In this document: positions 4,373 to 63,044 of the stretch, piece by piece
Position numbering within the stretch: position 1 is the first letter of the stretch
Layout of the letters: the number at the start of each line of letters is the position of its first letter
From: Urechis unicinctus
Taxonomy: Eukaryota > Annelida > Polychaeta > Xenopneusta > Urechidae
Assembly (NCBI GenBank): GCA_034190875.2
Contig: CM067354.1
Coordinates: forward strand, 9,296,364 to 9,360,363
Reading direction: 5' to 3'
Length of the DNA stretch: 64,000 nucleotides
Position numbers and translations under genes: made by a program
The notes under the pieces: model-generated
Databases searched by the model: none
Seen by the model: the letters and a program-made list of their open reading frames with translations, nothing else
Told to the model about the DNA's origin: nothing

Positions 4373-5212
4373 AGTGTTTGCGTGAGAAATAAACAGCATC
4401 GATTATTTGGTTTTCCTTATATTCTTGTATTTGCATATTCATAAGTCATATTCTGCCAGACAATAAGGAAGTTGTTCATGGCAAAAATAAATAAAACATA
4501 AAGGTGAAATGCCTATGCTTTTTTGTTTTGGATGTAATTATCAACTCCAATCATAAACAACATTTGTCAACAGAATTGGGGAAGTGTGAATGGTGATGTT
4601 AAGACATGCTGATGTTTCTTTCCAACCGGAGACGACAGGTTTAGTTTCTCAAGCGGAAATATCATTAAGCAATGTTCTATAAAACAATTCTCTTAGGAAA
4701 TTTACTCGTTAAATAACGCGAGTATGAATTTTAGCCATGTTTTTCGGTATTGGAGCTGTGAACTGTTCACGATTGATTCTAAATCTGAAATTGGTGGCAA
4801 AATATCGCTAATACCCCGTGCTTTTCTTCACATCTTTATTCGACCGTACTCCTCCCCTGTCATAATGTCTATTTGGCTCTCATATAGAACGTAGCTATTC
4901 AAACTCTGAAAATGTACACAGGCCTAATAGACTACTCAAGAAATAAAGAAAACTTAACAGGGAAACCGTTTTGCTAATAAAGATTGTGTTTTGACATTTT
5001 TTTGCATGCTACATATATAGTTCTAAAGATGTGTGCAGAGATGTATTGTGTATGAAAGCAATACCAGCCGTAGCAAGGCCATGTGAATGATACCTGAACT
5101 AGTAAATGCAGTGATCGCAAACATCTAGGCAACGATATTACATATTGTGATGCCTTCTGTCGAAATTAAACATTCGCTGACTTCGGATAATTGCTTTGCT
5201 GAATAAACTTGC
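4373..5212. other. Intergenic, no gene seen
   Basis: AT-rich, with no supported feature. Confidence 0.5.
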
Positions 5213-5678
5213 AATACATACATACATACATACATACATACATACATACATAATACAGACATACATACATTACATACATACATACCTACATACATACATA
5301 CAGACAGACATACGACATCGTACATGCATACATACATACATACATACAGTACATACATACAGACATACATACATACATACATACATACATACATACATAC
5401 ATACATACATACATACATACATACATACATACATACATACATACATACATACATACACAGACATACATACATACATACATACATACATCATACATACATA
5501 CATATAACATACATACATACATACATACATACATACATACATACATACATACATACATACACATACAGACATACATACATACATACATACATACATACAT
5601 ACATACATACATACATACATACATACATACATACATACATACATACATACATACATACATACATACATACATACATAC

Positions 5679-5709
<31 letters not shown>

Positions 5710-5787
5710 CATACATACATACATATACATACATACACAGACAGACATACATACAAACATACAAACATGTATACATTCATACATATA
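5213..5787. repeat. (ATAC)n tetranucleotide microsatellite
   Basis: About 575 bp of nearly uninterrupted ATAC units, with scattered ACAG, single-base slips and a few CATATA interruptions. All open frames here (repeated Tyr-Ile-His-Thr or Met-Tyr-Val-Cys) are artefacts of the repeat. Confidence 0.97.
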
Positions 5788-23890: not shown

Positions 23891-25238
23891 TCAATGTTAC
23901 CATCGTGATATCTAGAGAACGGTCTATGTTTATTTATAAGGTTTGCATCATATGAAATTATATGCAATATCATGGTGGTTGTGACAATATAAGACCAACG
24001 ATATGCTAGTTCATAATCAGTCCCAGATAAGCTTGATCAAGAGTCCCAAGTGCTTTTGCTGAATTTATGGAAGCGCCACCTGACGATAGGCGTGCTAAAA
24101 ATGTTAACTGTTTAGCCAGTCAGATTAAGCCCTTGTGACGAAGCTATTAGATCTAAGATATTTTCATCCAAACGAGTCCCTTGTGATAAACGTACAATAA
24201 CCTTTGTAAAAAATCCACGTACACATGATTGACAACACGCACCGCGCATCGACATTGATAGATTTGATAGCTGAGTATAATGATTAATGAATTCAGTGTT
24301 GGTTTATTCACAAAATCTCAGAACAAAAAGTCTAAACTAAAACATTATTTCAATGTCACAATCATTATCAGTATAATACACCAAGGACTCCCTCGTGATG
24401 GCCTTTATTAACAGTTGTATGTTTTCCTCGTCGATTTGGCTATAGAAGTAATACTACAATCTCAAATAGAATAATCCGATAGTCGTTAGATATGTCAGAT
24501 CCTAGGCACTTATGTCTACTTGGACGACTTGGCAAACTACAAGAATTTCAGGTCCATTTGGTAGATTGAACGGAAGCCAGATCAATCTCTTCTGTCTTAT
24601 TCAATTTAGTGCAACATCGAGATGAGTCCGATCAGTGTGATTATATGCTGGCAGGCCCTAGACACCTGTGCTCGTCTGTGTGTCAATAGATCTCATTGTT
24701 GAAGGCTCGTTCCTTCCTTTCACAGCGTATGGAAGCAAATAAAAGTCCATTAGCAGTTGTGATGTCTAGAGCGTTACCTAGCTTATCATATAGCAAAAGC
24801 TCAGGAGATATTCAGCAAAATCTATTTTAATCCTGAAACAATTATACAGGCACATTGTATCACACTGGCTCTCAAAAGCACAAATCAACCAAACTGGGGA
24901 TATGCATTTCTGGAGTGATGTTGAACTAAAACTGGCATCCGGGAAAAGGTTTTCATTAGGAAAAGATTGGATAAAATGTTTCATTGATGAAGCTTAGATT
25001 TTGCGGATATAAATCTTAACCAGCCGGCACCAATATAACTATATAATGATTTCCCATAAGTCATGTCCGACTGCGCTAAATACTATATTCATCGCCACAC
25101 GGTTACTCGAGAAAGCACTCAGTCAACTCTGTTTCCTTTAATGGTTACGCGTTATTTTATATAGTAGGTCCGCTCCCCAGGGGTATCAATGTGTTGCACA
25201 ACACACATATTGGTGAAAGTGCTATGACTGCCGAGTAT
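23891..25238. other. Intergenic, no gene seen
   Basis: No open frame, RNA gene or repeat that can be supported. Confidence 0.5.
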
Positions 25239-25274
25239 AAATATATATATACATATATATATTTACATATTGAT

Positions 25275-25364
<90 letters not shown>

Positions 25365-25869
25365 CATATATATATATTTATATATATATGTATATAGATA
25401 CATATATATACAAATGTATATATCTATATTTATATATATATTTTTATATCTAGATATATATATATATGTATATATATATATATCAATATATATATATATA
25501 TAGTACATATATATAATATATATGTTTATATATATAAAGATAAATATATTCATATATATATATACAAATATATATACATGTACATATATGTATATACATA
25601 TATATATATAAACATATATATATATATATTTACATATATATATATATATTAGTATATACACATATATTATATATATATGAATATACCTATATATATATAA
25701 AATAACTATATATATTACTATTTTATATATATATTGGTATATATGTATATATATACATTTCTAAATATATATATATGTATATATGTACATATATGCATAA
25801 ACATATATATAAGTATACATGCATATATATATCCATATATATACAAATATATATTCATATATATATACA
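25239..25869. repeat. (TA)n-rich microsatellite block
   Basis: About 630 bp of alternating TA interrupted by TTTA, ACATAT, CATG and AGATA. The purest run is at about 25280-25362. Open frames of repeated Ile-Tyr are artefacts. Confidence 0.97.
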
Positions 25870-37186: not shown

Positions 37187-37193
37187 GATATAT

Positions 37194-37238
<45 letters not shown>

Positions 37239-37469
37239 TAGATATATAGATAGATATATAGATATAGATAGATAGATATATATATATAGATATACACAGA
37301 TATATATATAGAGATATATATATATATAGAGAGAATATATATATAATAGATCTATATTAGAGAGATTTCTATATATATATATCTACCTATATATATATAT
37401 ATCTATATATATCTATTTCGCCCTAGATAGATATATATATATATATATATATCTATATCCCCCTATATA

Positions 37470-37500
<31 letters not shown>

Positions 37501-37523
37501 CTATATATATATATATATATATA

Positions 37524-37553
<30 letters not shown>
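37187..37553. repeat. (TA)n / (GATA)n microsatellite block
   Basis: About 365 bp of TA runs mixed with TAGA/TCTA and two short C-rich interruptions (CGCCCT near 37420, CCCCCT near 37457). Confidence 0.95.
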
Positions 37554-37556
<3 letters not shown>

Positions 37557-41815: not shown

Positions 41816-43883
41816 TCACAAATAGCGATAAACACTGAAGTGGGGTAATATGCCAAGTCCAGCGGGGTAATTGATCCACTGTCCCGAAGGGAGCGCCGCT
41901 AATCTGGTGTGGTCCCACCACATACTGCCGTTGCCCAGACGAGGCAGGTAGATTCTCCGTGACGTACTATCCTTGGTCATGACTGGAGCGAGCATCATCC
42001 AGTCGTCCACAATAAATTGGTCGACCACTCCGAATGCAGCCTCATCATCTGAATTCGCCAAGTTCCACAAAGGCTTTATTTGAAACTTATATAAGGAAGG
42101 AAATTTATTATTTCTCATAATTTGGGTATGGAGTTCCAACAGGTTTAACATGTGCGCCTGCGCAGTTTCACTTAAACACCAAGGAGGAAGTGGAAGTTGT
42201 ACAGCTGGCAGAAACACAGAAGCTGACAACCACCTGATGTACAACTCTTCATCAATAGCACCCTCGTCACATTGGAACAAAGAAGATCTTAGAACGGGAG
42301 TTGAAACAAATTTCACGTTCTCCTTGAACATAGTGAATAGCAATAGTTCAGGCAATATCCCACCCAGACCACTCTTTCCCCAAGAAACAACTTTAGGACT
42401 CAAAGAGAAGTAATTTGCGATGCCTTCTGATAAACCCATCTCACTTTCGGTGATAATTGGTGAATTAGGGTATGTGGTTTGAGCTATTGTTAGCATATTT
42501 TGTATGTTGGCCCAGATCCGACTTCTTTCTGTCTCATCTGAAATGGACAAAACGTTATCTACAGCTTCTGGTAGAACAAAGGCCTTTACTCTCGATCCCG
42601 TCCTGTGTTCAAACCGATCTACACTTTTCCAGAACCACTCGGTTGCTGCTGGATCAGCAAAATTCAGCATGTAACGAGTATCATTTTGGTACCGCACAAT
42701 AAGAGGCATATTACGATGATCAGTGATGATGAAGTCAAGTAGGAAGTTTGAGGAGGACGCCAGGCGGCGCAGGGTGAGGATATTTGTGCTTATCAGAGGG
42801 AACAGAGGAAGTGCTATGTTGATATTAAGGTCGCTGTCAGATTCCCATTCACATAGCTCTGCAAGAGACTGGATATCGCAGGTTTGGCAGACATACAGGA
42901 CGTCCGTCAAGTTAAAATCAAGCATTCTGAGGCTGAAAGTTGTAATTGCGCCCATTACTCGGCACACAGGTTCCCAAAAGGTCACCAGCAATGTGTGGGA
43001 TAGTCGTGGGAGTGCAGAATCGTTTTTAACCAGCGCCCTTGTAATATTAACTGGTCTCTCGGTTACCTTTGCGTCAATACACAGAGTGTAATTCAAATGA
43101 GTTGGTGACATTTTGTTGGAGCTTGTTTTATCCGATCTAGGGATTTGCCGGATGCATACGGAGTGATCCGGACAATCACTGTTATTATTTACGCCAATCA
43201 ACATAGCTTGGTTGGAATCTCCATGGAGAGAAATACCTGTAGAAGATACAATAATTTTACGCTTCCCAGAATACAATGCTTGCCAGGTCAGAGCACATGT
43301 TCTGTGCTGGAACAGATTGTAGCTCTCCTGGTTGGAGAAAGGCACACCTACCATTTGGCTTCTACTACCACCAAACCATTCCCTGAAGTCCCCTCGAAGA
43401 CAGTCACCGAATACGTTTTCCTTACAGTCCTGAGAGTACCAGGCGATGCTGTAACAGCTCCCAAACCTGGCGTGTTGGTAATAATCAATATTCAGCCTGA
43501 TGTGATGTTCCAATTCAAGACAGAGGCTATCGTCAGAAGACGTATCTTCGTCACACATTTTACTAAGAACTAACGCGTGTTTACTGTCATGGCCGAGAAC
43601 GCCATTTATTTGTAACGCCCCGTGAGTATTTAAGATAACAAGTCTTCCTGTAGAGACAGTCAATTCCGCATTGCCAACAAGCAGTTTTACTCTGGGTGTC
43701 TCCAACATATAGAAGAACCAACCGAGTCCAGCGGCCAATGAGCAACTGATAAGAAGAACAGCCGCTGTTCCTAAAACAGCTCTAACTTGCTGTCGACAAA
43801 GAGTCTCATCGTCGTCATCTGCATCAATTGCACTGCGACCTCTTTTGTGTTTTTTGTCAGTCGATGCAGTGAAGAGAGCATTT
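41816..43883 (-). CDS. GH31-family type II membrane protein, SITS-binding-protein/MYORG-like (main coding exon)
   Basis: Encodes residues 9-696 of a predicted 696-residue protein; TGA stop at 41816-41818. The exon follows an acceptor reading GATGTTTCCAG on the minus strand, and its first base completes a split codon (phase 2). No ATG precedes the membrane segment in this exon, so an upstream exon is required. Order: short acidic/basic cytoplasmic tail (KKHKRG, DADDDDE), one membrane segment at about 43-67 (GTAAVLLISCSLAAGL), then a large extracellular or lumenal part with seven N-glycosylation sequons. Family motifs are GGSRSQMVGVPF (179-190), SWGKSGLGGILPELLL (508-523), ELYIRWLSASVFLPAVQLPL starting about 554, DQFIVDDWMMLAPVMTKDS (629-647), IYLPRLGNGS (652-661) and LPSGQW (672-677). 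The position where active GH31 enzymes have the FDAGE nucleophile reads FVLPEA (444-449), and the usual acid/base Asp motif is not evident. It is therefore likely non-catalytic, as proposed for SITS-binding proteins. Length fits the branch. Confidence 0.93.
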
Positions 43884-44710
43884 CTGGAAACATCACAAAA
43901 TACAAAGGTATATATAAATAATGTCAAATATTCAGATGTACGTCTATCATGCGAACACTCATTGACCAGTAACAAAATATATATTTTAGTCTACAACCGA
44001 ACATAAATAAAAGACATCGTTTATAGAGTATGCGATGATTGTATAGGCAGATTGAGGGAAATGCTGTCAATGTTGATGGACACGACACAATGTTGCTTCA
44101 TAATGTTAAATAACGGCAAAGAACAACAAACTGCAACCAGCAATTGATACTCATCTAAATGTGTGAAAAACGGTAATGATTGTAACACGACACAGAGAGA
44201 GTTGGGTAAGTGTGACGTCATAATGGAGGTCATTGACATCTTTGCTATAATGCATAATACTCCCGTCTGCAAAGATGCACCACTCTGACAATATACACAG
44301 TTCCTGTTAACAACGCAGCTACGGCAATAAGCCCCGACCCTTTGACTTGATTAGGATTCCCTTTGATGATGGTATTTGCGAAGTGCTGGTGAATCAAATG
44401 CCTTGTTTGTTAATGTGACCATCAATCACAATCGGCCCTGTAATTCACATCATATATCGTGGGCAGCATCTGTTGCTAAGCACATTGTAAAACATATTAT
44501 GATAGAGGTCGCTAACACCAATGTTGCACTGTGCAACCTCAACCAGTGATTACACGATCAACAGCCCTGGTCTGCTTCTTACAAAATAACCTCCACATAC
44601 TTTCATTCCTTCAAAAATATATGTACTTGACTTATCACAGCAGAATAATATTCTTCAAGTGTGAATGTGATCTATAAACAGAGTACATTTGTCACCATGT
44701 AGATACTTAC
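43884..44710 (-). other. Intron of the GH31-like gene
   Basis: Predicted 827-nt phase-2 intron. Donor is GG|GTAAGTATC (44710 downward); acceptor is preceded by a pyrimidine-rich TTTGTATTTTGTGATGTTTCCAG. The only open frames inside are short. Confidence 0.7.
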
Positions 44711-45736: not shown

Positions 45737-47227
45737 TTAACTTGGCGTTGTCATAACGCCAAGTTATGGCGATCGGCCCGGTTTGTAAGTTTGTTAGTTT
45801 GGATGTTTGGATGTATGTAACACTTTTTTTGTTTCGCGATACAGGTCGCAATTTTTGAAATTTTTCAGATTTTTTTTTTTTAAATGGTTGGGACCAATGA
45901 TGCGCAGAACCGAGAGGTTTTGTTTTGACCTTGAGTTCATATAAGGTCAAGGTCACGTTGTGAATTTTTCAATCCTTCATATCATCTTAACCTACGGTGC
46001 GATTTTTAAAAAGTTTACAGTTCCTTGTAGCCTGATTTATTCGCCAGCTTTCCATATCAAATATCATGAAAAAATATGCATATTTCGCCCCGTAGCCCCC
46101 ACTCGAAAATTTGTGGTAGTGTTTTACCACATTTTTCCATCGTTTATAACTTCAACAATATTCGATGGATGGTCATAAAAATTGGGTCGAATGTGCTCAG
46201 AAGCACTGGCTATCGGAAGATAAGTGTTTTTTTTATGTCGATTACGTCACTTCCGGTTACGAGCAAAACAACGTTATTTAGCTGTGCAATCCGAATTTAT
46301 CGCGTCATTTCTCCGTCGTTAATGGTCGTATCGTAAAAATGTTTGCACCTGAAGGTAGCCCATACACTTCCAAACTTGAAACTTATTCATCTAATTGTTT
46401 ATGTCTTATAGTTTTCTCACAAACTGAGCTTAAAGTTAAAAAGTGACCCCCCAAATGCATTAACACCCCCCCAATATGTTAAATACTACTGGGTCGATTT
46501 TGAAAATTTAAACATGAATTTGAAGGTTACTTTTCGAGTAACATTTCGTACGCATTGTAACAGCAGGAATTATGCGTAGTTTTCTCACGAATCGCCGGTA
46601 AAAGTTCGGAAAACAGGTAAAATTGATAATTTTTTTTCGATCACTTATAAAATCGACAATATTCGTTCGAGGATCATAAAACTTGGTTCGAATGTTACCA
46701 TGGAGAGCGTCAACCGAATTATAATTCTTTTAGGGAAGTCGCTGACGTCATTTCCGGTCACGAACGAATCAAAGTTATAATTCGACTGAAATCTGAAGTT
46801 ATCGCGTCGTTTCTCTGTCGTGAATGGTCGTATCGTGAATTGGTTTGCTCGAGAAGGAAGCCCATTCAATTCTGAACAATGTGTATAATTTTCAGCTCTA
46901 AATATCCAACAGTTTTCTCACAAAGTAAGTTTGAAGTACAGTGGGTGTCAATTCTGCTGGCTCTTCACTGCAGCCGCCCTGTCGCGCAGAACAAAGGAAT
47001 CCCGAGCGGCCCAGCGCGCGGCTTGAGAGAAGCGGCTGGCTGCGGGAATCAGGTCAAATCGCAGCGCCTCCCGCGCTACATCACCTAGAGGCCCAAGGGT
47101 ACATGGGGGAACTTTACCAACTGCATCAGGAAAATTTCATTTTGGTCAATTAAGGCCCCATTCTGAAAATCTCTCCAATTAATTAGATGCAGTTCGCCAA
47201 GTTCCCACATGTTCCCATGTGCCTCTT
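45737..47227 (+). repeat. Array unit 1 (type A)
   Basis: Stem-loop 45739-45765 (loop GTCAT). DR0 pair at 45926-45955 with one eroded half. CRE/ETS sites at 46242-46257 (CRE changed to TTACGTCA) and 46743-46758 (TGACGTCATTTCCGGT). GC-rich tail at about 46970-47090. Confidence 0.85.
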
Positions 47228-48752
47228 GTTAACTTGGCGTTGTCATAACGCCAAGTTATGGCGATCGGCCCGGTTTGTAAGTTTGTTAACTTGGCGTAAT
47301 CATAACGCCAAGTTACGTTGGTCAGTCGCGTTTGTAAGTTTGTTTGTTAACAATTTTTTGTTTCGCGATACAGGTCGCAATTTTTGATATTTTCCAATTT
47401 TTTTTTCACCAATCGTTAGGCGTCATTGATGCGCAGAACCGAGATGTTTTGTTTTGACCTTTACCTCATATTAAGGTCAAGGTCACGTTGTGAATTTTTC
47501 AATCCTTAATATCATCTTAACCTACGGTGCGATTTTTAAAAAGTGTACAGTTCCTTGTAGCCTGATTTATTCGCCAGCTTTCCATACCAAATATCATGAC
47601 AAAATATGCATATTTCGCCCCGTAGCTCCCACTCGAAAATATGTGGTAGTATTTTATCATATTTTTCCATCGCTTATATCTTCAACAATATTCGATGGAT
47701 GGTCATAAAAATTGGGTCGAATGTTCACAGAAGCACTGGCTATCGGAAGATAAGTGTTTTTGGGATGTCGATGACGTCACTTCCGGTTACGAGCAAAACA
47801 ACGTTATTTAGCTGTGCAATCCGAATTTATCGCGTCATTACTCCGTCGTTAATGGTCGTATCGTAAAAATGTTTGCACCTGAAGGTAGCCCATACACTTC
47901 CGATCTTGAAACTTATTCATCTAATTGTTTATGTCTTATAGTTTTCTCACAAACTTAGGTTAAAGTTAAAAAGTGACCCCCCCAAATGCATTAACACCCC
48001 AATATGTTTAATACTACTGGGTCGATTTTGAAAATTTAAACATGAATTTGAAGGTTACTTTTCGAGTAACATTTCGTACGCGATTTACAGCAGGAATTAT
48101 GCGTAGTTTTCTCACGAATCGCCGGTAAAAGTTCAAAAAACAGCTAAAATTGGCAATTTTTTTTCGATCATTTGTAAAATCGACGATATTCGTTCGAGGG
48201 TCACAAAACGTGGGTAAAATGTTACCATGGAGAGCGTCTACCGAATGATGATTCTTTTGGGGAAGTCGCTGATGTCATTTCCGGTCACGAACAAATCAAA
48301 GTTAAAATACGACTGAAATCTGAAGTTATCGCGTCGTTTCTCCGTCGTAAATGCTCGTATCGTGAATTTGTTTTCTTTCGAAGAAAGCCCATTCAATTCT
48401 GAACATATATGTGTAATTTTCTGCTCAAAATAACCGACAGTTTTCTCATAAAATAATTTTAAAGTACAATGGGTGTCATTTCTAATGGCTCGGCGCGGGC
48501 TTTTACAACAGCCTGCCTCACGCGCTGAACAAAGGAATTTGCTCTAGGCTAGGGGGCGCGGGGCACGTGGCGCGGCAAATACGGCAGGCCGCGGTACTCT
48601 TAAATAAAAAATATGCTTTTCCTGGTGTCAGACTCTGAACCATTGTTTTATCGATAAATCTAGAGTAACTTGGTCAATTTTGGGACAATATTGAAATTTT
48701 CAAAAGTTTCCGACACTGTTAGCCAAGTTCACCCATGTCCTCATGGGCATCT
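47228..48752 (+). repeat. Array unit 2 (type A, alternative tail)
   Basis: Two stem-loops in a row (47231-47257 and 47288-47314). DR0 pair 47455-47485, left half eroded to TGACCTTTA. CRE/ETS at 47772-47787 (perfect) and 48270-48285 (TGATGTCA). Tail carries a GCGCGGGGCACG-type block and ends in GCCAAGTTCACCCATG. Confidence 0.85.
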
Positions 48753-50188
48753 CGTTAGTTTGGATGTTTGGATGTATGTAACACTTTTTTTGTTTCGCGA
48801 TACAGGTCGCAATTTTTGAAATTTTCCAATTTTTTCTTCGCCCATCGCTAGGCGTCAATGATGCGCAGAACCGAGAGGTTTTGTTTTGACCTTGACCTCA
48901 TATTAAGGTCAAGGTCACATTGTGAATTTTTCAATCCTTCATATCATCTTAACCTATGGTGTGATTTTTAAAAAGTTTACAGTTCCTTGTAGCCTGATTT
49001 ATTCGCCAACTTTCCATATCAAGTATCATGAAAAAATATGCATATTTCGCCCCGTAGCCCCCACTCGAAAATTTGTGGTAGTGTTTTACCACATTTTTCC
49101 ATCGCTTATAACTTCAACAATATTCGATGGATGGTCATGAAAATTGGGTCGAATGTTCACAGAATCACTGGCTATCAGAAGATAAGTGTTTTTTTTATGT
49201 CGATGACGTCACTTCCGGTTACGAGCAAAACAACGTTATTTAGCTGGGCAATCGAAAGTTATTGCGTCATTACTCCGTCGTTAATGGTCGTATCGTAAAA
49301 ATGTTTGCACCTAAAGGTAGCCCATACACTTCCGAACTTGAAACTTATTCATCTAATTGTTTATGTCTTATAGTTTTCTCACAAACTGAGCTTAAAGTTA
49401 AAAAGTGACCCCCAAATGCATTAACACCCCAATATGTTTAATACTACTGGGTCGATTTTGAAAATTTAAACATGAATTTGAAGGTTACTTTTCGAGTAAC
49501 ATTTCGTACGCATTGTAACAGCAGGAATTATGCGTAGTTTTCTCACGAATCGCCGGTAAAAGTTCGGAAAACAGCTAAAATTGATAATTTTTTTTCGATC
49601 GCTTATAAAATCGACAATATTCGTTCGAGGATCATAAAACTTGGTTCGAATGTTACCATGGAGAGCGTCAACCGAATTATAATTCTTTTAGGGAAGTCGC
49701 TGACGTCATTTCCGGTCACGAACGAATCAAAGTTATAATTCGACTGAAATCTGAAGTTATCGCGTCGTTTCTCTGTCGTGAATGGTCGTATCGTGAATTG
49801 GTTTGCTCGAGAAGGAAGCCCATTCAATTCTGAACAATGTGTATAATTTTCAGCTCTAAATATCCAACAGTTTTCTCACAAAGTAAGTTTGAAGTACAGT
49901 GGGTGTCAATTCTGCTGGCTCTTCACTGCAGTCGCCCTGTCGCGCAGAACAAAGGAATCCCAAGCGGCCCAGCGCGCGGCTTGAGAGAAGCGGCTGGCTG
50001 CGGGAATCAGGTCAAATCGCAGCGCCTCCCGCGCTACATCACCTAGAGACCCAAGGGTACATGGGGGAACTTTACCAACTGCATCAGTAAAATTTCATTT
50101 TGGTCAATTAAGGCCCCATTCTGAAAATCTCTCCAATTAATTAGATGCAGTTCGCCAAGTTCCCACATGTTCCCATGTGCCTCTTGTT
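48753..50188 (+). repeat. Array unit 3 (type A, no stem-loop)
   Basis: Starts directly at the GGATGTTTGGATGTATG tract. DR0 arms 48887-48898 and 48906-48917. CRE/ETS at 49204-49219 and 49701-49716. The second half is nearly identical to units 1 and 6. Confidence 0.85.
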
Positions 50189-52697
50189 AACTTGGCGAAT
50201 TCGCATTCGCCAAGTTATGGCGATCGGCCCGGTTTGTATGTTTGTATGTATGTATGTCCGGATGTTTGTAACACTTTTTTTGTTACACGATACAGGTCGC
50301 AATTTTTGAAATTTTCCAATTTTTTTTCACCAATCGTTAGGCGTGAATGATGCGCAGAACCCAGATGTTTTGTTTTGACCTTGACCCAAAACTAAGGTCA
50401 AGGTCATTGAATAAGTGAAAAACTAGTATCTCGAATAACTCCGATAATAATGGTCGGATCGTTACAAACTTTACACCATCGTGTAGCTCATTCAAATTGC
50501 AAACTTTTTCTGATGACATATACGGCGATCCAACCAATGGTTTTCCCGAGCGCCTAAGGTCGAAAAAAAGTGGTATCGGTCCAAATGGCAACAAAAGTTT
50601 CATGAATATTTTGAGCGCCTATAAAACCGTCAATACATGTCCGATGGTAATCAAATTTGGTTCACATGTTCTCAGCAACATACCAAGACGTATCCTAAAA
50701 TATCATGAATGTCGATGACGTCACTTCCGGTCACGAAAGCATCAAAGTTTTCAAAAAATGACACAAGTTCAATGCTCAATATGTCCATACTTTAGTGTTC
50801 CATTTTTAAACAGTTTAGATATTCTGAAAGTGTAATGTAATTGTAAACTTTTTCTAAATATACTTTGTTGTAAATAATGCATTGTTAAAAAATTATAGCA
50901 GGTCGAAAATTTCTGGTAACCAAAATCGCTAAATTTTTTTATTTCGCAATTAATTCACTAATTATCGTCCGATCGTAACAAAATTAACATTATCTAAAAG
51001 CTGACACAATTACTAAACTTTGATAATTGACATATGCTATCAAAATATTCGTCGTTTTCAAAGCGCGTTGAGTTGAAAAAACAAATTTCACTCAGTCAAT
51101 TTTCGTCAAATTTTCGATTGCTAATAAAATCGTAAATATCATCAGTTCTATAATCATAAAAATCTGCTCAGCTGTTGTCATCGACAGCACGAATCGTGTT
51201 CTATTGAAATTAGATGAAATAATTGTTGTGGCACGAAAATTGGGAAAAAAAAATTATGTCCGTGTACTGGATTTGAACACCGGCCTCTGGCATGGAAGTC
51301 TAAAAGTATGCCGCTACGCCACGCGGCCTAGCACACTAGCATGCATTGTCATATATGAATAATAAGTATTACAGGTGCCAACAAGAGCTAAACACTCAAC
51401 ATGATTATTAAATCCATAGTAATTTTGTTAATTATAGGTTGATACGGATTTTTTATTGCTTAATGTTGTTTGGCTTCTGAATGAATGTTTAAGGTTGATA
51501 GTTTCACAAAGGTCACCGCTGCTGCCAGCTCGCTTTGCGTAAAGCCGGCAAGCAGCAATACGGACCAGTCCAATGTCCGATTATTACGACATTTACGCGG
51601 CAACTATGTCACGCCGCGAAACTTATTAATATATTATTAATTTCTTTTTGCCAGCTAAATCAATGTCAATCTATCATGAACCCGGAAAACAGTTTTATGG
51701 AAGCCCACCCAATTCTAGCTGTGCACGCCGCCGGTATAAATTTATATTACCACCGTCCGCGGCTAACTCAATTCTTAACTTACCATGAGACTATTGTTAA
51801 TATCGCGAAATTGTATTCGCCTAGTAATCTTGGCCAATCGCATTCACTGCTTAATATATACGGGCATAATAATTTGATATTAAAACACCTTAAAATTCTG
51901 AAAGTGTAATGTAATTGTAAACTTCAGACCCGTTACTAGGAATTAATGTAGGGATTATCTGAAATGAGCTAAGCAGATCTTCTAGCATACACTGCCATTC
52001 TGACCATGATTAAAGGATAAATTTGGCATATGAGCGAAAATACTGAGGCTGAGTGGGGGGTATTGTCCGATTCACCCGTCACCCTCTTGGATACGGACCT
52101 ACATAACCGTTGCTAATAAAAATTGGTTGACAATACTACAATTTTTTTAATTTCTTTATTCTTCAATCGATAGGCGGCAAATGATACGCAGAACCGATAA
52201 GTTTTCTTTGACCATGACCAAAAATAAGATAGTTGTCAACGAAAAAGTGAAAAACTAGTATCTCGAATAACTTCGCTAATAATGGTCGGATTGTTACAAA
52301 TTTTACACCATTGTGTACCTCTATTGACATATGATGCCATCCAACCCACGGTTTTCCGAGACATACTAAGACGTATCCTTAAATATTGTGGATGTCGATG
52401 ATGTCACTTCCGGTCATGATAACCTTGCCTCAATCCTTGATATCACCCTAACGTATGGTGCGACTTTAAAAAGATTTATAGTTCCTTGTAGCATGATTTA
52501 TTGGCCAATTGTTCATATCAATTGTCATGATAAATTGTGCATATTTCGCCCCGTAGCCCGCACTCGAAAATTTGATAACCATGATAACTTTGGTAACTTT
52601 GGCCGATTTTGGTCAATTGTGGCCCGGTTCTGAAAATGTTGCAATTATTTGGATGCAGTTCGCCAAGTTCCCACATGGCTCCCATGGGCCTCTTGTC
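50189..52697 (+). repeat. Array unit 4 (type B, long)
   Basis: Stem-loop 50189-50216 with compensated stem change (GAAT/ATTC). DR0 arms 50376-50387 and 50395-50406. CRE/ETS at 50716-50731, and a TGATGTCA variant at 52399-52414. tRNA-like block at 51261-51328. The segment 51530-52340 is nearly identical to 61745-62555 in unit 11. Relative to unit 11 this copy lacks 128 bp at 52355/52356. Confidence 0.85.
51261..51328 (-). repeat. tRNA-like block 1
   Basis: On the minus strand, TGGCGTAGCGG fits an A box and GTGTTCAAATCC fits a B box at tRNA-like spacing. Cloverleaf stems do not pair well (D and T stems fail), so this is not a functional tRNA gene but a tRNA-derived remnant, as in the head of a SINE. 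Confidence 0.5.
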
Positions 52698-54198
52698 AAC
52701 TTGGCGTCATAACGCCAAGTTATGGCGATCGGCCCGGTATGTATGTTTGGATGTTTGGATGTTAGTTAACATTTTTTTGTTTCGCGATACAGGTCGCAAT
52801 TTTTGAAATTTTCCATTTTTTTCTTCTTCAATCGTTAGGCGTGATTGATGCGCAGAACCGAGAGGTTTTGTTTTGACCTTGACCTGAAACTAAGGTCAAG
52901 GTCATCGAATAAGTGAAATACTAGTATCTCAAATAACTCCGTTAATAATGGTCGGATCGTTACAAACTTTACACCATCGTGTAGCTCATTCAACAAATTG
53001 CAAACTTTGTTATGACATATACGGCGATCCAACCAACGGTTTTCCCAAGCGTCCCAGGTCGAAAAATCGTGGTATCGGTCAGAATGACAACATAAGTTTC
53101 ATGAATATTTTGAGCGCCTATAAAACAGTCAATACATGTCCGATAATGATAAAAATTGGGTCACTTGTGCTCCATGACAGCTTAAGTCGGATCCATAGAT
53201 TTCATGAATGTCGGTGACGTCACTTCCGGTCACGAAAGCATCAAAGTTTATAAAAACTGACACAAGTTCAATGCTCAATATGTCCATGCTTTACAATTAA
53301 ATATCCATACAGTCAACATATTCTGAAAGTGTAATGTAATTGTAAACTTTTTCTAAATATACTTAGTTGTAAATAATGCATCGTAAAAAAAAATCGTAGC
53401 ATGTCGAAAATTTCTGGTGGCCAAAATCTCTAAACTTATTAATTTCGCAATAGATTCATTAATTATGGTCCGATCGTAACAAAATTTACATTTTCTGAAA
53501 GCTGATGGAATTACCAAACTTTCATAATTGACATATGCAATCAATATATTTGTCCTTTTCAAAGCGCGTTGAGTTGAAAAAACAAATTTCACTCAGTCAA
53601 TTTTCGTCAAATTTTCGATTGCTAATAAAATCGTAAATATCAGTTCAATGGTGATAAAAATTAAATCAGATGTTGACATCAACAGCGCGAATCTAATCCG
53701 CAAAATTTATTGATATCGGTTGCGTCACTTCCGGTTTCGAACGAATCAAAGCAAAAACGGTACTCAAATCTGAAGTTATAGCGTCGTTCGTCCGACGTGA
53801 ATGGTCGTATCGTAAATTTGTCGGCGCTCGAGGGAAGCCCATTCAATTCTGAACACAGGTGTAAAATTTTCTGCTCAAAATATATGACAGTTCTCTCATA
53901 AAGTAAGTTTGAAGTACAGTGGGTGTCATTTCTGATGGCTCGGCACTGGCTTGTTTACGCCTGCCTCTCGCGCTGAACAAAGGAATCTGCTCTCGGCTCG
54001 GGATGCGCGTGGTGCGGCAAGTACGGCAGGCCGCGGTACTATTAAATATGAAAATATGCTTCTCCTTGTGTCAGCCTCTGAATCATAGTTTATCAATAAA
54101 TCTTGAGTAACTTGGTCAATTTTGGATCAATATTGAAATTTTCAAAAGTTTCCGACACTGTTAGCCAAGTTCACCCATGTTCTCATGGGCATCTCGTT
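52698..54198 (+). repeat. Array unit 5 (type B head, type A tail)
   Basis: Stem-loop 52698-52721 (loop CATA). DR0 arms 52874-52885 and 52893-52904. CRE/ETS at 53215-53230, and a TTGCGTCA variant at 53720-53735. Tail as in unit 2. Confidence 0.85.
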
Positions 54199-55688
54199 AA
54201 CTTGGCGTTTTCGGAACGCCAAGTTATGGCGATCGCCCCGGTTTGTACGTTTTGTATGTATGTCCCGTTGTTTGTAACACTTTTTTTTTTTGTTTCGCGA
54301 TACAGGTCGCAGTTTTTGAAATTTTCCAATTATTTCTTCACCCATCGTTAGGCGTGAATGATGCGCAGAACCGAGAGGTTTTGTTTTGACCTTGACCTCA
54401 TATTAAGGTCAAGGTCACATTGTGAATTTTTCAATCCTTCATATCATCTTAACCTATGGTGTGATTTTTAAAAAGTTTACAGTTCCTTGTAGCCTGATTT
54501 ATTCGCCAACTTTCCATATCAAATATCATGAAAAAATATGCATATTTCGCCCCGTAGCCCCCACTCGAAAATTTGTGGTAGTGTTTTACCACATTTTTCC
54601 ATCGCTTATAACTTCAGCAATATTCGATGGATGGTCATAAAAATTGGGTCAAATAATCACAGAAGCACTGGCTATCGGAAGATAAGTGGTTTTTTTTGGT
54701 CGATGACGTCACTTCCGGTTACGAGCAAAACAACGTTATTTAGCTGGGCAATCGAAAGTTATTGCGTCATTACTCCGTCGTTAATGGTCGTATCGTAAAA
54801 ATGTTTGCACCTAAAGGTAGCCCATACACTTCCGAACTTGAAACTTATTCATCTAATTGTTTATGTCTTATAGTTTTCTCACAAACTGAGCTTAAAGTTA
54901 AAAAGTGACCCCCAAATGCATTAACACCCCAATATGTTTAATACTACTGGGTCGATTTTGAAAATTTAAACATGAATTTGAAGGTTACTTTTCGAGTAAC
55001 ATTTCGTACGCATTGTACCAGCAGGAATTATGCGTAGTTTTCTCACGAATCGCCGGTAAAAGTTCGGAAAACAGCTAAAATTGGCAATTTTTTTTCGATC
55101 GCTTATAAAATCGACAATATTCGTTCGAGGATCATAAAACTTGGTTCGAATGTTACCATGGAGAGCGTCAACCGAATTATAATTCTTTTAGGGAAGTCGC
55201 TGACGTCATTTCCGGTCACGAACGAATCAAAGTTATAATTCGACTGAAATCTGAAGTTATCGCATCGTTTCTCTGTCGTGAATGGTCTTATCGTGAATTG
55301 GTTTGCTGGAGAAGGAAGCCCATTCAATTCTGAACAATGTGTATAATTTTCAGCTCTAAATATCCAACAGTTTTCTCACAAAGTAAGTTTGAAGTACAGT
55401 GGGTGTCAATTCTGCTGGCTCTTCACTGCAGCCGCCCTGTCGCGCAGAACAAAGGAATCCCGAGCGGCCCAGCGCGCGGCTTGAGAGAAGCGGCTGGCTC
55501 CGGGAATCAGGTCAAATCGCAGCGCCTCCCGCGCTACATCACCTAGAGACCCAAGGGTACATGGGGGAACTTTACCAACTGCATCAGGAAAATTTCATTT
55601 TGGTCAATTAAGGCCCCATTCTGAAAATCTCTCCAATTAATTAGATGCAGTTCGCCAAGTTCCCACATGTTCCCATGTGCCTCTTGTT
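54199..55688 (+). repeat. Array unit 6 (type A)
   Basis: Stem-loop 54199-54225 (loop TTCGG). DR0 arms 54387-54398 and 54406-54417. CRE/ETS at 54704-54719 and 55201-55216. Differs from unit 8 only by small indels. Confidence 0.85.
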
Positions 55689-56695
55689 AACTTGGCGTTC
55701 ATAACGCCAAGTTATGGCGATCACCCCGGTTTGTATGTTTGTATGTATGTATGTATGTATGTATGTTTATATGTTTGTTAACACTTTTTTTGTTTCGCGA
55801 TACAGGTCGCAGTTTTTGAAATTTTCCAATTTTTTCTTCACCCATCGCTAGGCGTCAATGATGCGCAGAACCGAGAGGTTTTGTTTTGACCTTGACCCAA
55901 AACTAAGGTCAGGGTCATGAATAAGTGCGAAACGAGAGGTTTTGATTGACTACCAAAACTAAGTCAGTCATCGAATAAGTAAAATGGTGATCGAAAACTT
56001 ACACCTATAGGCTCATTCAAAAATTGAAACTTGTTAGCTATCCAAATTGCAAACTTTTTCCAAGAGTCCGGTCGACAAAATGGGTTTCGGTCAGCAGACA
56101 CCTAAGTTTCATGAATATTGGGCTATCGCCAAAAGCAATAAGTTCATGAATATTTAAGGGCCATTAAGTCTCAATGACAGCTCAGTGGATCAAATTTGGT
56201 ACTGTCTCGACGCAACTACCGTCACGAAGCATAAATTCATGAAACTGACCAAGTTCCGAATGCTCAAGCATGTCAAAGTTTACAAAAATATCCACAGTCA
56301 ATGCTAATTAGTCGTACTTTAATTTTTCAATTATAACTTAGTTTAAATAGATCGTAAAAAAAACGTTAGCATGTCAAATTTCTGGTCCAAAATTCATGTT
56401 AATTTCGCAATAGTTCATAAATGGTCCTCTGATGGCTCGGCACTGGCTTGTTTACGCCTGCCTCTCGCGCTGAACAAAGGAATCTGCTCTCGGCTCGGGA
56501 TGCGCGTGGTGCGGCAAGTACGGCAGGCCGCGGTACTATTAAATATGAAAATATGCTTCTCCTTGTGTCAGCCTCTGAATCATAGTTTATCAATAAATCT
56601 TGAGTAACTTGGTCAATTTTGGATCAATATTGAAATTTTCAAAAGTTTCCGACACTGTTAGCCAAGTTCACCCATGTTCTCATGGGCATCTCGTT
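55689..56695 (+). repeat. Array unit 7 (type B, eroded by many small deletions)
   Basis: Stem-loop 55689-55713. DR0 arms 55887-55898 and 55906-55917. From about 55915 to 56430 the sequence follows 52905-53935 of unit 5 but with dozens of short deletions, leaving about half the length; no CRE/ETS site survives. From 56430 it is a clean copy of 53935 onward. Confidence 0.8.
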
Positions 56696-58187
56696 AACTT
56701 GGCGTTTTCGGAACGCCAAGTTATGGCGATCGCCCCGGTTTGTACGTTTGTATGTATGTCCCGTTGTTTGTAACACTTTTTTTGTTTCGCGATACAGGTC
56801 GCAGTTTTTGAAATTTTCCAATTATTTCTTCACCCATCGTTAGGCGTGAATGATGCGCAGAACCGAGAGGTTTTGTTTTGACCTTGACCTCATATTAAGG
56901 TCAAGGTCACATTGTGAATTTTTCAATCCTTCATATCATCTTAACCTATGGTGTGATTTTTAAAAAGTTTACAGTTCCTTGTAGCCTGATTTATTCGCCA
57001 ACTTTCCATATCAAATATCATGAAAAAAATATGCATATTTCGCCCCGTAGCCCCCACTCGAAAATTTGTGGTAGTGTTTTACCACATTTTTCCATCGCTT
57101 ATAACTTCAGCAATATTCGATGGATGGTCATAAAAATTGGGTCAAATAATCACAGAAGCACTGGCTATCGGAAGATAAGTGGTTTTTTTTGGTCGATGAC
57201 GTCACTTCCGGTTACGAGCAAAACAACGTTATTTAGCTGGGCAATCGAAAGTTATTGCGTCATTACTCCGTCGTTAATGGTCGTATCGTAAAATGTTTGC
57301 ACCTAAAGGTAGCCCATACACTTCCGAACTTGAAACTTATTCATCTAATTGTTTATGTCTTATAGTTTTCTCACAAAACTGAGCTTAAAGTTAAAAAGTG
57401 ACCCCCAAATGCATTAAACACCCCAATATGTTTAATACTACTGGGTCGATTTTGAAAATTTAAACATGAATTTGAAGGTTACTTTTCGAGTAACATTTCG
57501 TACGCATTGTACCAGCAGGAATTATGCGTAGTTTTTCTCACGAATCGCCGGTAAAAGTTCGGAAAACAGCAAGCTAAAATTGGCAATTTTTTTTCGATCG
57601 CTTATAAAATCGACAATATTCGTTCGAGGATCATAAAACTTGGTTCGAATGTTACCATGGAGAGCGTCAACCGAATTATAATTCTTTTAGGGAAGTCGCT
57701 GACGTCATTTCCGGTCACGAACGAATCAAAGTTATAATTCGACTGAAATCTGAAGTTATCGCATCGTTTCTCTGTCGTGAATGGTCTTATCGTGAATTGG
57801 TTTGCTGGAGAAGGAAGCCCATTCAATTCTGAACAATGTGTATAATTTTCAGCTCTAAATATCCAACAGTTTTCTCACAAAGTAAGTTTGAAGTACAGTG
57901 GGTGTCAATTCTGCTGGCTCTTCACTGCAGCCGCCCTGTCGCGCAGAACAAAGGAATCCCGAGCGGCCCAGCGCGCGGCTTGAGAGAAGCGGCTGGCTCC
58001 GGGAATCAGGTCAAATCGCAGCGCCTCCCGCGCTACATCACCTAGAGACCCAAGGGTACATGGGGGAACTTTACCAACTGCATCAGGAAAATTTCATTTT
58101 GGTCAATTAAGGCCCCATTCTGAAAATCTCTCCAATTAATTAGATGCAGTTCGCCAAGTTCCCACATGTTCCCATGTGCCTCTTGTT
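56696..58187 (+). repeat. Array unit 8 (type A)
   Basis: Stem-loop 56696-56722 (loop TTCGG). DR0 arms 56879-56890 and 56898-56909. CRE/ETS at 57197-57212 and 57700-57715. Near-copy of unit 6. Confidence 0.85.
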
Positions 58188-58640
58188 AACTTGGCGTTAT
58201 CATAACGCCAAGTTATGGCGATCACCCCGGTTTGTATGTTTGTATGTATGTATGTATGTATGTATGTTTATATGTTTGTTAACACTTTTTTTGTTTCGCG
58301 ATACAGGTCGCAGTTTTTGAAATTTTCCAATTTTTTCTTCACCCATCGCTAGGCGTCAATGATGCGCAGAACCGAGAGGTTTTGTTTTGACCTTGACCCA
58401 AAACTAAGGTCAGGGTCATTGAATAAGTGAAAAACTAGTACCTCGAATAACTCCGTTAATAATGGTCGGATCGTTACAAACTTTACACCATCGTGTGTAG
58501 CTCATTCAAATTGTAAACTTTTTCTAAATACTTATACGGCGATCCAACCAATGGTTTTCCCGAGCGCCTAAGGTCGAAAAAAAGTGGTATCGGTCCAAAT
58601 GGCAACAAAAGTTTCATGATGAATATGTTGAGCGCCTATC
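58188..58640 (+). repeat. Array unit 9 (type B, truncated)
   Basis: Stem-loop 58188-58214 (loop ATCAT). DR0 arms 58388-58399 and 58407-58418. Breaks off after GAGCGCCTAT near 58638 and is followed by an incomplete unit. Confidence 0.8.
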
Positions 58641-58654
58641 AGATATCATTTGTT

Positions 58655-59949
58655 GTGATCCGCGATACAGGTCGCAATTTTGGAAATTTTCCAATTTTTT
58701 CTTCGCCCATCGCTAGGCGCTAATAAGGCGCAGAACCGAGAGGTTTTGTTTTGACCTTGACCCAAAACTAAGGTCAAGGTCATCGAATAAGTGAAAAATT
58801 AGTACCTCGAATAACTCCGTTAATAATGGCTGGATCGTTACAAAATTTACACCATCGTGTAGCTCATTCAAATTGCAAACTTTTTCTAATGACGTATACG
58901 GCGATCCAACCAATGGTTTTCCCGAGCGCCTAAGGTCGAATAAAAGTGGTATCGGTCCAAAAGGCAATATAAGTTTCATGAATATTTTGAGCGCCTATAA
59001 AATCGTCAATACATGTCCGATGGTAATAAAATTTGGTTCACCTGTTCTCCGCAACATACCAAGACGTGTACTAAAAAATCATGAATGTCGATGACGTCAC
59101 TTCCGGTTACAATAGCATCAAAGTTTTCAAAAAATGACACAAGTTCAATGCTCAATACGTCCGTACTTTAGAGTTCCATTTTTAAACAGTTTAGATATTC
59201 TGAAAGTGTAATGTAATTGTAAACTTTTTCTAAATTATACTTAGTTGTAAATAATGCATTGTTAAAAAATTGTAGCAGGTCGAAAATTTCTGGTAACCAA
59301 AATCTCTCAACTTATTTATTTCGCAATAAATTCACTAATTATGGTCCGATCGTAACAAAATAAACATTTTCTGAAAGCTGAAACAATTGCCAAACTTTGG
59401 ATTTGACATATGCTATCAAAATATTCGTCGTTTTCAAAGCGCGTTGAGTTGAAAAAAACACAAATTTCACTCAGTCAATTTTCGTCAAATTTTCGATTGC
59501 TAATAAAATCGTAAATGTCAGTTCTATAATGATAAAAATCTGCTCAGCTGTTGTCATTGACAGCACGAATCGTGTTCTATTGAAATTAGATGAAATAATT
59601 GTTGTGGCACGAAAATTCGGCAAAAAAATTATGTCCGTGTACTGGATTTGAACACCGGCCTCTGGCATGGAAGTCTAAAACTGTACCGCTACGCCACGCG
59701 GCCTAGCACACTGATCTGTATTGTCATATATATATTATAAGTATAACAGGTGCCAACAACAGCTAAACGCTCAACATGATTGATAAATCCATTGTAATTT
59801 TGTTAATTATAGGTTGATACGGATTTTTTATTGCTTAATGTTGTTTGGCTTCTGAATGAATGTTTAAGGTTGATAGTTTCACAAAGGTCACCGCTGCTGC
59901 CAGCTCGCTTTGCGTAAAGCCGACAAGCAGCAATACGGACCAGTCCAAT
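58655..59949 (+). repeat. Array unit 10 (type B, headless and tailless)
   Basis: Begins inside the CGCGATACAGGTCGCA block, without stem-loop. DR0 arms 58752-58763 and 58771-58782. CRE/ETS at 59092-59107. Ends at CAGTCCAAT (59949), exactly where units 4 and 11 continue with GTCCGATT. Confidence 0.8.
59636..59703 (-). repeat. tRNA-like block 2
   Basis: Second copy of the A-box/B-box block, with a few substitutions relative to 51261-51328. Not a foldable tRNA. Confidence 0.5.
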
Positions 59950-60123
59950 TCACTGTAAAAATGTATGTCCTCTTAAAAAAATTGCATATCGATGCAACAC
60001 ACACAGCAAACGAAACCATGCCAGTCAATACTTCTTTATCACCCTTGCTTATCGATGGTTCCCATTAGACATCATAACGATGATAACGTACCTTATGATT
60101 TTTTCATTTCCCTCTCGTGCTAC
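59950..60123. other. Non-unit sequence inside the array
   Basis: No match to the repeat units was seen; probably an insertion or remnant of the original locus. Confidence 0.4.
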
Positions 60124-60416
60124 ACAAACAAGAGGCCCGTAGATACATGGGGAAACCTTGAGGCCCATGGGCAAATTTCAAAATCGGCCCACTAATTCAT
60201 CTTATTGTATATATTATAACGTAATGATGATTTGCACGTTATGATTTTTCATTTCCCATGAATCACTTTGCAATCATAATGATTTTCAACATAAGAGGCA
60301 TGATAATTTAGGTAATATTTGGCCGATTTTGGCCAATTTTGGCCCGATTTAGAAATTGTTGCAATTGTTTGGATGCAGTTCGCCAAGTTCCCCCATGTAC
60401 CCATGGGCCTCTTGTT
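60124..60416. repeat. 290-bp foldback made of unit ends
   Basis: 60124-60185 contains AACAAGAGGCCC and TACATGGGGAA, the reverse complement of the unit end that occurs at 60386-60416 (CCCATGTACCCATGGGCCTC). The ends therefore form an inverted pair around about 200 bp. This is the only inverted unit fragment in the array. Confidence 0.6.
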
Positions 60417-63044
60417 AACTTGGCGATTTCGGATCGCCAAGTTATGGCGATCACCCCGGTTTGTAAGTTTGTTTGTGGGATGTTTGTAAACAATTTTTTG
60501 TTTCGCGATACAGGTCGCAATTTTTGAAATTTTCCAATTTTTTCTTCGCCCATCGCTAGGCGTCAATAGTGCGCAGAACCGAGAGGTTTTGTTTTGACCT
60601 TGACCCAAAACTAAGGTCAGGGTCATTGAATAAGTGAAAATCTAGTACCTCGAATAACTCCGTTAATAATGGTCGGATCGTTACATACTTTACACCATCG
60701 TGTAGCTCATTCAAATTGCAAACTTTTTCTAAATACATATACGGCGATCCAACCAATGGTTTTCCCAAGCGTCTAAGGTCGAAAAAAAGTGGTATCGGTC
60801 CAAATGGCAACAAAAGTTTCATGAATATTTTGAGCGCCTATAAAACGGTCAATACATGTCCGATGGTAATAAAATTTAGTTCACATGTTCTCAGCGACAT
60901 ACCAAGACGTATCCTTAAATATCATGAATGTCGATGACGTCACTTCCGGTCACGAAAGCATCAAAGTTTATAAAAAATGACACAAGTTCAATGCTCAATA
61001 CGTCCATGCTTTAGAATTCCATTTAAAATAAGTTTAGATATTCTGAAAGTGTAATGTAATTGTAAACTTTTTCTAAATATATTTAGTTGTAAATAATGCA
61101 TTGTTAAAAAAATTGTAGCAGGTCGAAAATTTCTGGTAACCAAAATCTCTCAACTTATTTATTTCGCAATAAATTCACTAATTATCGTCCGATCGTAACA
61201 AAATTAACATTTTCTGAAAGCTGAAACAATTGGCAAACTTTGGATTTGACATATGCTATCAAAATATTCGTCGTTTTCAAAGCGCGTTGAGTTGAAAAAA
61301 CAAATTTCACTCAGTCAATTTTCGTCAAATTTTCGATTGCTAATAAAATCGTAAATATCAGTTCTATAGTCATAAAAAACTGCTCAGCTGTTGTCATCGA
61401 CAGCACGAATCGTGTTCTATTGAAATTAGATGAAATAATTGTTGTGGCACGAAAATTGGGAAAAAAAATTATGTCCGTGTACTGGATTTGAACACCGGCC
61501 TCTGGCATGGAAGTCTAAAACCATGCCGCTACGCCACGCGGCCTAGCACACTGATCTGTATTGTCATATAAATATCATAAGTATAACAGGTGCCAACAAC
61601 ATCTAAACGCTCAACATGATTGATATATCCATAGTAATTTTGTTAATTATAGGTTGATACGGATTTTTTATTGCTTAATGTTGTTTGGCTTCTGAATGAA
61701 TGTTTAAGGTTGATAGTTTCACAAAGGTCGCCGCTGCTGCCAGCTCGCTTTGCGTAAAGCCGGCAAGCAGCAATACGGACCAGTCCAATGTCCGATTATT
61801 ACGACATTTACGCGGCAACTATGGCACGCCGCGAAACTTATTAATATATTATTAATTTCTTTTTGCCAGCTAAATCAATGTCAATCTATCATGAACCCGG
61901 AAAACAGTTTTATGGAAGCCCACCCAATTCTAGCTGTGCACGCCGCCGGTATAAATTTATATTACCACCGTCCGCGGCTAACTCAATTCTTAACTTACCA
62001 TGAGACTATTGTTAATATCGCGAAATTGTATTCGCCTAGTAATCTTGGCCAATCGCATTCACTGCTTAATATATACGGGCATAATAATTTGATATTAAAA
62101 CACCTTAAAATTCTGAAAGTGTAATGTAATTGTAAACTTCAGACCCGTTACTAGGAATTAATGTAGGGATTATCTGAAATGAGCTAAGCAGATCTTCTAG
62201 CATACACTGCCATTCTGACCATGATTAAAGGATAAATTTGGCATATGAGCGAAAATACTGAGGCTGAGTGGGGGGTATTGTCCGATTCACCCGTCACCCT
62301 CTTGGATACGGACCTACATAACCGTTGCTAATAAAAATTGGTTGACAATACTACAATTTTTTTAATTTCTTTATTCTTCAATCGTTAGGCGGCAATGATA
62401 CGCAGAACCGATAAGTTTTGTTTTGACCATGACCGAAAATAAGATAGTTGTCAACGAAAAAGTGAAAAACTAGTATCTCGAATAACTCCGCTAATAATGG
62501 TCGGATTGTTACAAATTTTACACCATTGTGTACCTCTATTGACATATGATGCCATCCAACCCACGGTTTTCCCAGGCGTCTAAGGTCGAAAAATCGAGGG
62601 ATCAGTCCAAATGGCAACAATAGTTTGATGAATATTTCGAACGCGTATAAAACAACCAATAAATGTCCTATAGTACTAAAAAATGGTTTACATGTTCTCC
62701 GAGACATACTAAGACGTATCCTTAAATATTGTGGATGTCGATGACGTCACTTCCGGTCATGATAACCTTGCCTCAATCCTTGATATCACCCTAATGTATG
62801 GTGCGACTTTAAAAAGATTTATAGTTCCTTGTAGCATGATTTATTGGCCAATTGTTCATATCAATTGTCATGATAAAATGTGCATATTTCGCCCCGTAGC
62901 CCGCACTCGAAAATTTTATAACCATGATAACTTTGGTAACTTTTGGCCGATTTTGGTCAATTGTGGCCCGGTTCTGAAAATGTTGCAATTATTTGGATGC
63001 AGTTCGCCAAGTTCCCACATGGCTCCCATGGGCCTCTTGTTAGG
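60417..63044 (+). repeat. Array unit 11 (type B, long, last)
   Basis: Stem-loop 60417-60443 with compensated GAT/ATC change and TTCGG loop. DR0 arms 60595-60606 and 60614-60625. CRE/ETS at 60935-60950 and 62742-62757. tRNA-like block at 61476-61543. Ends in CATGGGCCTCTTGTTA, after which unique DNA begins. Confidence 0.85.
61476..61543 (-). repeat. tRNA-like block 3
   Basis: Third copy of the A-box/B-box block. In this copy GGCATGG and CCATGCC pair perfectly around a 10-nt loop, but the whole still does not fold as a tRNA. Confidence 0.5.

Follow-up and report, generated by a model that had tools for sequence, protein, structure and literature searches.

In a 64,000-nucleotide stretch of the Urechis unicinctus genome (GenBank assembly GCA_034190875.2, contig CM067354.1, positions 9,296,364 to 9,360,363 of the forward strand), referred to here as the window, ten units of one dispersed repeat stand head-to-tail in an array at 45739-63039 on the plus strand. 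The array is probably a tandem multimer of a non-autonomous Helentron (HINE) family, whose units seem to carry a conserved cargo resembling the sites of host factors. This cargo has two parts, a 16-bp composite in which an ETS site overlaps a cAMP response element (CRE), and a 31-bp inverted repeat of ERR type. Judged by their letters, both are putative binding sites for host factors, namely GABP-type ETS proteins, CREB/ATF, and ERR or FTZ-F1-type receptors. The spreading of factor sites by Helitrons is already known, and the combined ETS-CRE and ERR cargo was not found in the literature searched.

The array contains 17 composite sites at zero to two mismatches, compared with a mean of 0.04 matches in 100 shuffles (largest 1). 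All of them lie on the plus strand, which corresponds to a density of 17 per 17.3 kb. The original prediction had located these 17 sites on one strand with every coordinate right, and its array limits, 45737..63044, are refined to those given above. Thirteen sites are exact. The remaining four (46242, 48270, 52399, and 53720) deviate within the first four bases of TGACGTCA, and the last ten bases of the composite are constant in all 17 sites except at a C/T position. Most units are built from two related subunits, with composite sites approximately 500 bp apart. The sites sort into lineages A to D, with the diverged 53720 counted in B; when 53720 is compared separately, these groups are 44-72% alike across the 300 bp surrounding the site. 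The ratio of observed to expected CpG is 0.97 in the window, 0.85 outside the array, and 1.27 inside it, and the first two values rule out a vertebrate-like window. The features are as follows.

45739..63039, plus strand: whole array of ten head-to-tail HINE-type units
45739..47228, plus strand: unit 1, with 5' palindrome, ERR-type repeat, sites 46242 and 46743, and 3' end
45739..45765, plus strand: 5' subterminal repeat of unit 1 and its complementary inverted repeat (AACTTGGCG...CGCCAAGTT)
47231..48754, plus strand: unit 2, two heads in a row, sites 47772 and 48270
48757..50186, plus strand: unit 3, 5' palindrome lost, sites 49204 and 49701
48887..48917, plus strand: example of the 31-bp inverted repeat, TGACCTTGACC(N6)TAAGGTCAAGGTCA, holding TGACCTTGA and TCAAGGTCA
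49204..49219, plus strand: ETS-CRE composite in the C form, reverse complement ACCGGAAGTGACGTCA, one of the 17
49701..49716, plus strand: ETS-CRE composite in the T form, reverse complement ACCGGAAATGACGTCA, second site of its unit
50189..52695, plus strand: unit 4, longer type with a tRNA-like stretch, sites 50716 and 52399
52698..54196, plus strand: unit 5, sites 53215 and 53720
54199..55686, plus strand: unit 6, sites 54704 and 55201
55689..56693, plus strand: unit 7, shortened and decayed, no composite site within 3 mismatches
56696..58185, plus strand: unit 8, sites 57197 and 57700, about 99% like unit 6
58188..60414, plus strand: unit 9, left part doubled, site 59092, tRNA-like stretch, and a 3' fold-back module (by eye)
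60417..63039, plus strand: unit 10, sites 60935 and 62742, tRNA-like stretch
63005..63039, plus strand: 3' subterminal repeat of unit 10 (CGCCAAGTT), palindrome CCCATGGG, and terminus CCTCTTG

The ends of the repeat are of Helentron type. The 5' end reads AACTTGGC...GCCAAGTTATGGCGATC. Most window units and single copies have a 5' subterminal repeat with a complementary inverted repeat (AACTTGGC...GCCAAGTT), which is lost in unit 3. The 3' end follows the pattern GCCAAGTT..CCCATG..CATGGGC(C/A)TCTTG, giving a CCTCTTG or CATCTTG terminus; this pattern occurs at 1186 places in the genome and its control at 0. Between units, the end of one is joined to the head of the next by exactly TT in 22 of 23 junctions and by TC in the other. 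T makes up 0.75 of the four bases preceding the 5' end, measured at 22 places, and 0.61 of the four that follow the 3' end, measured at 42 pattern-matched places without filtering, compared with 0.31. In addition, TGTA microsatellite arrays are located at 55732 and 58233. The longest stop-to-stop frames in the array measure 130-135 amino acids, and the one of these four frames that was scanned gave no Pfam match at E<=1.

These traits agree with the HINE anatomy described for mites and flies (PMC4067079) and with Cg_HINE of the Pacific oyster, a HINE with satellite-like central repeats (PMC7492417). The shared traits are subterminal inverted repeats with a complementary or palindromic 5' partner, a 3' palindrome a few bases from the end, a tetranucleotide microsatellite, central repeats, and T-rich flanks. 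In contrast to the described elements, the units here build long end-to-head multimers, their central repeats carry ETS-CRE sites, and their left part carries an ERR-type repeat. The 3' subterminal repeat is located 26 bases from the end, whereas it lies 38-60 bases away in the mite families (PMC4067079).

Two further structures were recognized by eye. The longer units contain a tRNA-like stretch on the reverse strand (51264-51325, 59639-59700, and 61479-61540), perhaps an old SINE (short interspersed element) head; ARAGORN and Rfam at gathering scores matched no tRNA or known RNA element in the window. A fold-back module of approximately 320 bp, with 3'-type Helentron ends on both sides, is found at 60128-60414 of the window and, flipped, at 1619-1929 of locus L059. 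It occurs both alone and within longer units.

We searched the whole source genome (1.19 Gb, 926 contigs) for the motif and for the family. The exact 16-mer is present at 3480 places, compared with 3 for the reversed control pattern, which bears out the earlier idea that a repeat family spreads the composite. When up to 3 mismatches are allowed, a family seed outside the motif is found at 4685 places, and its control at none. We read 20 loci chosen by the seed on contigs C1 and C2, and 20 chosen by the exact motif on C1. All 20 motif-chosen loci show homology to the array, so that in this sample the 16-mer is accounted for by the family. Across the listed contigs, C1 and C2, both single copies and arrays of varied size are widespread. 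Copies that stand alone, about 1.5-1.7 kb long and complete at both ends (L013, L015, L033, L046, and L052, for example), rule out classical satellite DNA, which would occur as tandem arrays only. Together, the Helentron-type ends and the dispersed single copies indicate a transposon that builds tandem arrays as well.

An array of the same family spanning about 139 kb at C2:46263161-46402063, far inside a 73.7-Mb contig, could be centromeric or merely a large multimer. Arrays at the very start of the 60.9-Mb contig C1 (543-15687) and approximately 1 Mb from its end (59839340-59875189) are possibly subtelomeric. Nine copies of a composite repeat (L034-L039, L042, L045, and L048) are near-identical around two composite sites, and in L038 a frame with FRITPERFDDLVRRV continues into family sequence. 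This frame, and with it the copies of the L034 type, may be Harbinger-like; the Pfam search gave no match. In public collections, the array aligned over only 17-22 bases, as expected by chance (one 21-mer match in genome_contigs and three 17-mer matches in viral_contigs), and three further viral scans for relatives found nothing.

The conservation of the block was analyzed in 57 seed-found units, all from the window or from exact-seed loci on C1 and C2. The exact site is present in 41 of them and a site with one mismatch in 11 (52/57 at zero or one); 50 of these 52 sites lie 343-370 bases from the seed, and two lie at 216-217. When units were retained on flank identity alone, with seed columns excluded, 52 units remained, in which the block scores 1.80 bits and tops all 490 non-overlapping windows (mean 1.27, maximum 1.70). 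Five units were left out of this test: L014-4371, L017 twice, L029-2929, and win+52183, the last of which carries the site at one mismatch. In a 50-unit set, the block exceeds every other window in 98.5% of 200 locus bootstraps, a value favoring the block because the site or its position decided which seven of the 57 units were dropped. No invariant run there is longer than CACTTCCGGT. Seven of the ten lineage pairs align in register through the site, with 13-16 of its 16 bases kept, and the other three align elsewhere.

The original prediction also stated that in older copies one CRE base drifts while the ETS core remains intact. The pattern itself is found genome-wide, with 727 changes of the CRE CpG (4207-3480) and 240 of the ETS CpG (3720-3480). 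However, all 35 CRE variants among 100 listed places have the TGATGTCA form, which points to subfamily inheritance at least in part. The five ETS variants listed are of two forms.

Overlapping ETS-CRE composites are bound by GABP-alpha and CREB (PMC3464117, PMC4555227), and ACCGGAAGTGACGTCA contains this published composite, as predicted. Exact C-form sites match CCGGAAGTGACGTCA letter for letter in the same overlap register. The base after the CRE sets the array sites apart from the published probes, being mostly T in C-form sites or G in T-form sites, and C in the probes. In many units the second site shows either CCGGAAAT or an altered CRE, and the candidate sites here lie inside a transposon, in a genome that is not vertebrate-like. 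According to PMC4555227, GABP-alpha binds CCGGAAGT best, GGA changes uniformly lower its binding, and CRE changes act through lowered CREB1 binding. The array points in the same direction, the CACTTCCGGT side being invariant and the distal CRE half tolerating change. This parallel is limited, for the sole listed CRE CpG change resembles an inherited subfamily form.

Both partners of the composite plausibly exist in the host genome. GABP-alpha (PF11620) matches two adjacent stretches on contig C6, the second with one internal stop, such as an intron read through would produce, and pKID (PF02173) has one match, covering 15 of 41 positions, on C8. Alternatively, the block might bind the Rep protein of the element or serve as another replication feature, its likeness to ETS-CRE being a coincidence. 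We consider this very unlikely: strong conservation would suit such a role, as would the imperfect palindrome that holds the block in one unit, but the block is internal, some copies with the same 3' end do not have it, and the C form reproduces the published letters.

The second part of the cargo is the 31-bp inverted repeat, which lies about 300-320 bp upstream of the first composite and has a matching place in other units. Both of its arms are the next-best conserved windows after the block in the 52 flank-kept units, a rank that may be inflated because the repeat adjoins the seed by which copies were chosen. TGACCTTGA and TCAAGGTCA occur together in 37 of the 57 units, one of them in 14, and neither in 6; in the window, the two motifs are found 18 times inside the array and 0 times elsewhere. 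TCAAGGTCA is an ERR response element (PMC6459935), and the exact nonamer stands in both arms in those 37 units, here as an inverted pair at fixed spacing inside a transposon. The ERR-type repeat makes the regulatory reading more specific. FTZ-F1 type nuclear receptors bind sites similar to the ERR element. In vertebrates, ERR-alpha and GABP reportedly specify oxidative-phosphorylation genes (Mootha, in 2004).

A possible source of transposition proteins is present in the same genome. Helitron_like_N has 106 genome matches, of which 25 lack an inner stop and lie in open frames of 1200-2412 amino acids, which suggests that autonomous elements were recently active. On C1 below 35.4 Mb, seven of 14 Rep places fall within 20 kb of a motif place, whereas a uniform distribution predicts a share of 0.05 (0.09 if limited to 1.8-8.2 Mb). 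For this comparison, 100 listed motif places were thinned to 58 without loss of array end points, and the 17 Rep places of C1 were merged to 14. Two of the four Rep matches on C2 are inside a cluster of family seeds.

Another explanation is that the composite serves as a promoter, either for transcripts of the element itself or for the Rep gene of an autonomous Helentron, and that HINEs inherited it. Its ETS-to-CRE sense runs on the same strand as nearby Rep genes, Rep being opposite in strand to the array units at C1:7235711, C1:20420185, and C2:73530848. On the other hand, in the C2 copy no composite within 3 mismatches occurs on either strand over the 4 kb that precede the Rep domain, and the joint at C1:7235711 falls mid-unit. 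After the sequence upstream of Rep copies had been read, the Rep promoter was left unsupported, and we regard the promoter explanation as unlikely.

We also read 2 kb from each of ten copies chosen only by their 3' end (part of L060 was masked as N). Six have the site at zero or one mismatch, and L055 has it at two. The other three (L057, L059, and L060) have no site at up to 2 mismatches within the 2 kb read, so that the composite seems dispensable for movement and helps at most. Visual inspection shows L059 to be a short module bearing a 3'-type end at either side, and L060 to be truncated ahead of the site but TT-joined to the next unit.

These three copies are among several results that weigh against a Helentron with a preserved cargo. 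With all 57 units aligned, the peak at the block disappears; four of them (L014-4371, L017 twice, and L029-2929) lack homologous sequence at its place. The conservation test comprises approximately eight effective lineages (7.6-8.5). Within the subfamilies of the array, the block has 3 substitutions against 6.2 expected, which is not significant (Poisson about 0.14, by hand; 14 of 17 sites, leaving out the near-identical 57197 and 57700 and the lone 53720). The single joined flank pair that was searched for an empty site recovered only its own locus. In the stretches read around Rep copies, no Rep gene is bounded by family ends: the joint in L063 is mid-unit, array sequence is absent from L064, which covers 4 kb upstream of an intact Rep, and in L066 the head near a Rep copy is preceded by no unit end. 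The earlier claim that the block is among the best conserved parts is upheld between lineages in the flank-kept units; in the full set it is not, and among young array copies it is not significant.

Some of these results are also what neutral cargo would produce. In this case, the block would stem from one old master lineage and would owe its preservation to chance, recent amplification, and gene conversion among the tandem units, with no factor binding. The lack of significant protection in young copies, the small number of effective lineages, and derivatives that share the 3' end without the block all speak for it. However, the lineages are only 44-72% alike, and the block nevertheless keeps nearly all of its bases in most pairs; it ranks above all 490 windows, and ranks two and three are another pair of factor sites. 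Neutral cargo is a possible explanation, although we lean away from it. The conservation pattern fits selection on the lineages that kept multiplying, together with neutral decay of single copies; with about eight effective lineages, such selection is not proven.

The density of the sites could also be taken as a sign that the arrays are enhancer clusters domesticated by the host to regulate neighboring genes. Helitron-borne heat-shock elements, known from Caenorhabditis (PMC6927752), offer a precedent. Nevertheless, the arrays and single copies are widespread on C1 and C2, as expected for a mobile repeat, and young copies are not significantly protected, which makes domestication highly improbable. 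The Caenorhabditis Helitrons resemble the Urechis family in that rolling-circle transposons disperse host factor sites in large numbers, and differ in the set of factors (PMC6927752). In the literature searched, which covered few subscription journals, none of the papers listed describes a Helentron carrying ETS-CRE sites, or ETS-CRE together with ERR sites.

Elsewhere in the window, an open frame of 724 amino acids on the minus strand (41816-43990), approximately 1.7 kb to the left of the array, contains a glycoside hydrolase family 31 C-terminal domain (PF21365) and is likely a host gene. Long ATAC and TA microsatellites are located at 5214-5785, 25236-25867, and 37188-37554.

Returning to the HINE family with a host-factor-like cargo, we propose how it may have arisen. 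Rolling-circle copying past the 3' end would generate the head-to-tail multimers. Lineages that kept the composite and the ERR-type repeat may have multiplied better than others, if, in the germ line, the bound factors make the element accessible or drive its transcription and thereby give it an advantage. Alternatively, the advantage could come from a module that originated as an autonomous relative's promoter. For host genes, any effect would then be a by-product.

Transposons that disperse factor sites are believed to rewire gene networks in this way, and whether such sites first serve the transposon is rarely clear. In the present family, which is mobile and non-coding, the parts with the highest preservation resemble known host-factor sites. 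Since thousands of copies, distinguishable lineages, and sister elements without the site are available, the question of a benefit to the transposon becomes testable. GABP, CREB, and ERR are tied in vertebrates to mitochondrial and energy genes, and CREB has been linked to the oxidative-phosphorylation genes as well. A far-reaching version of our proposal, which we hold to be quite doubtful, is that a Helentron assembled and preserved a three-factor module (GABP, CREB, and ERR), that its activity follows the energy state of the germ cell, and that its thousands of copies then offer the host ready-made sites for rewiring this energy programme.

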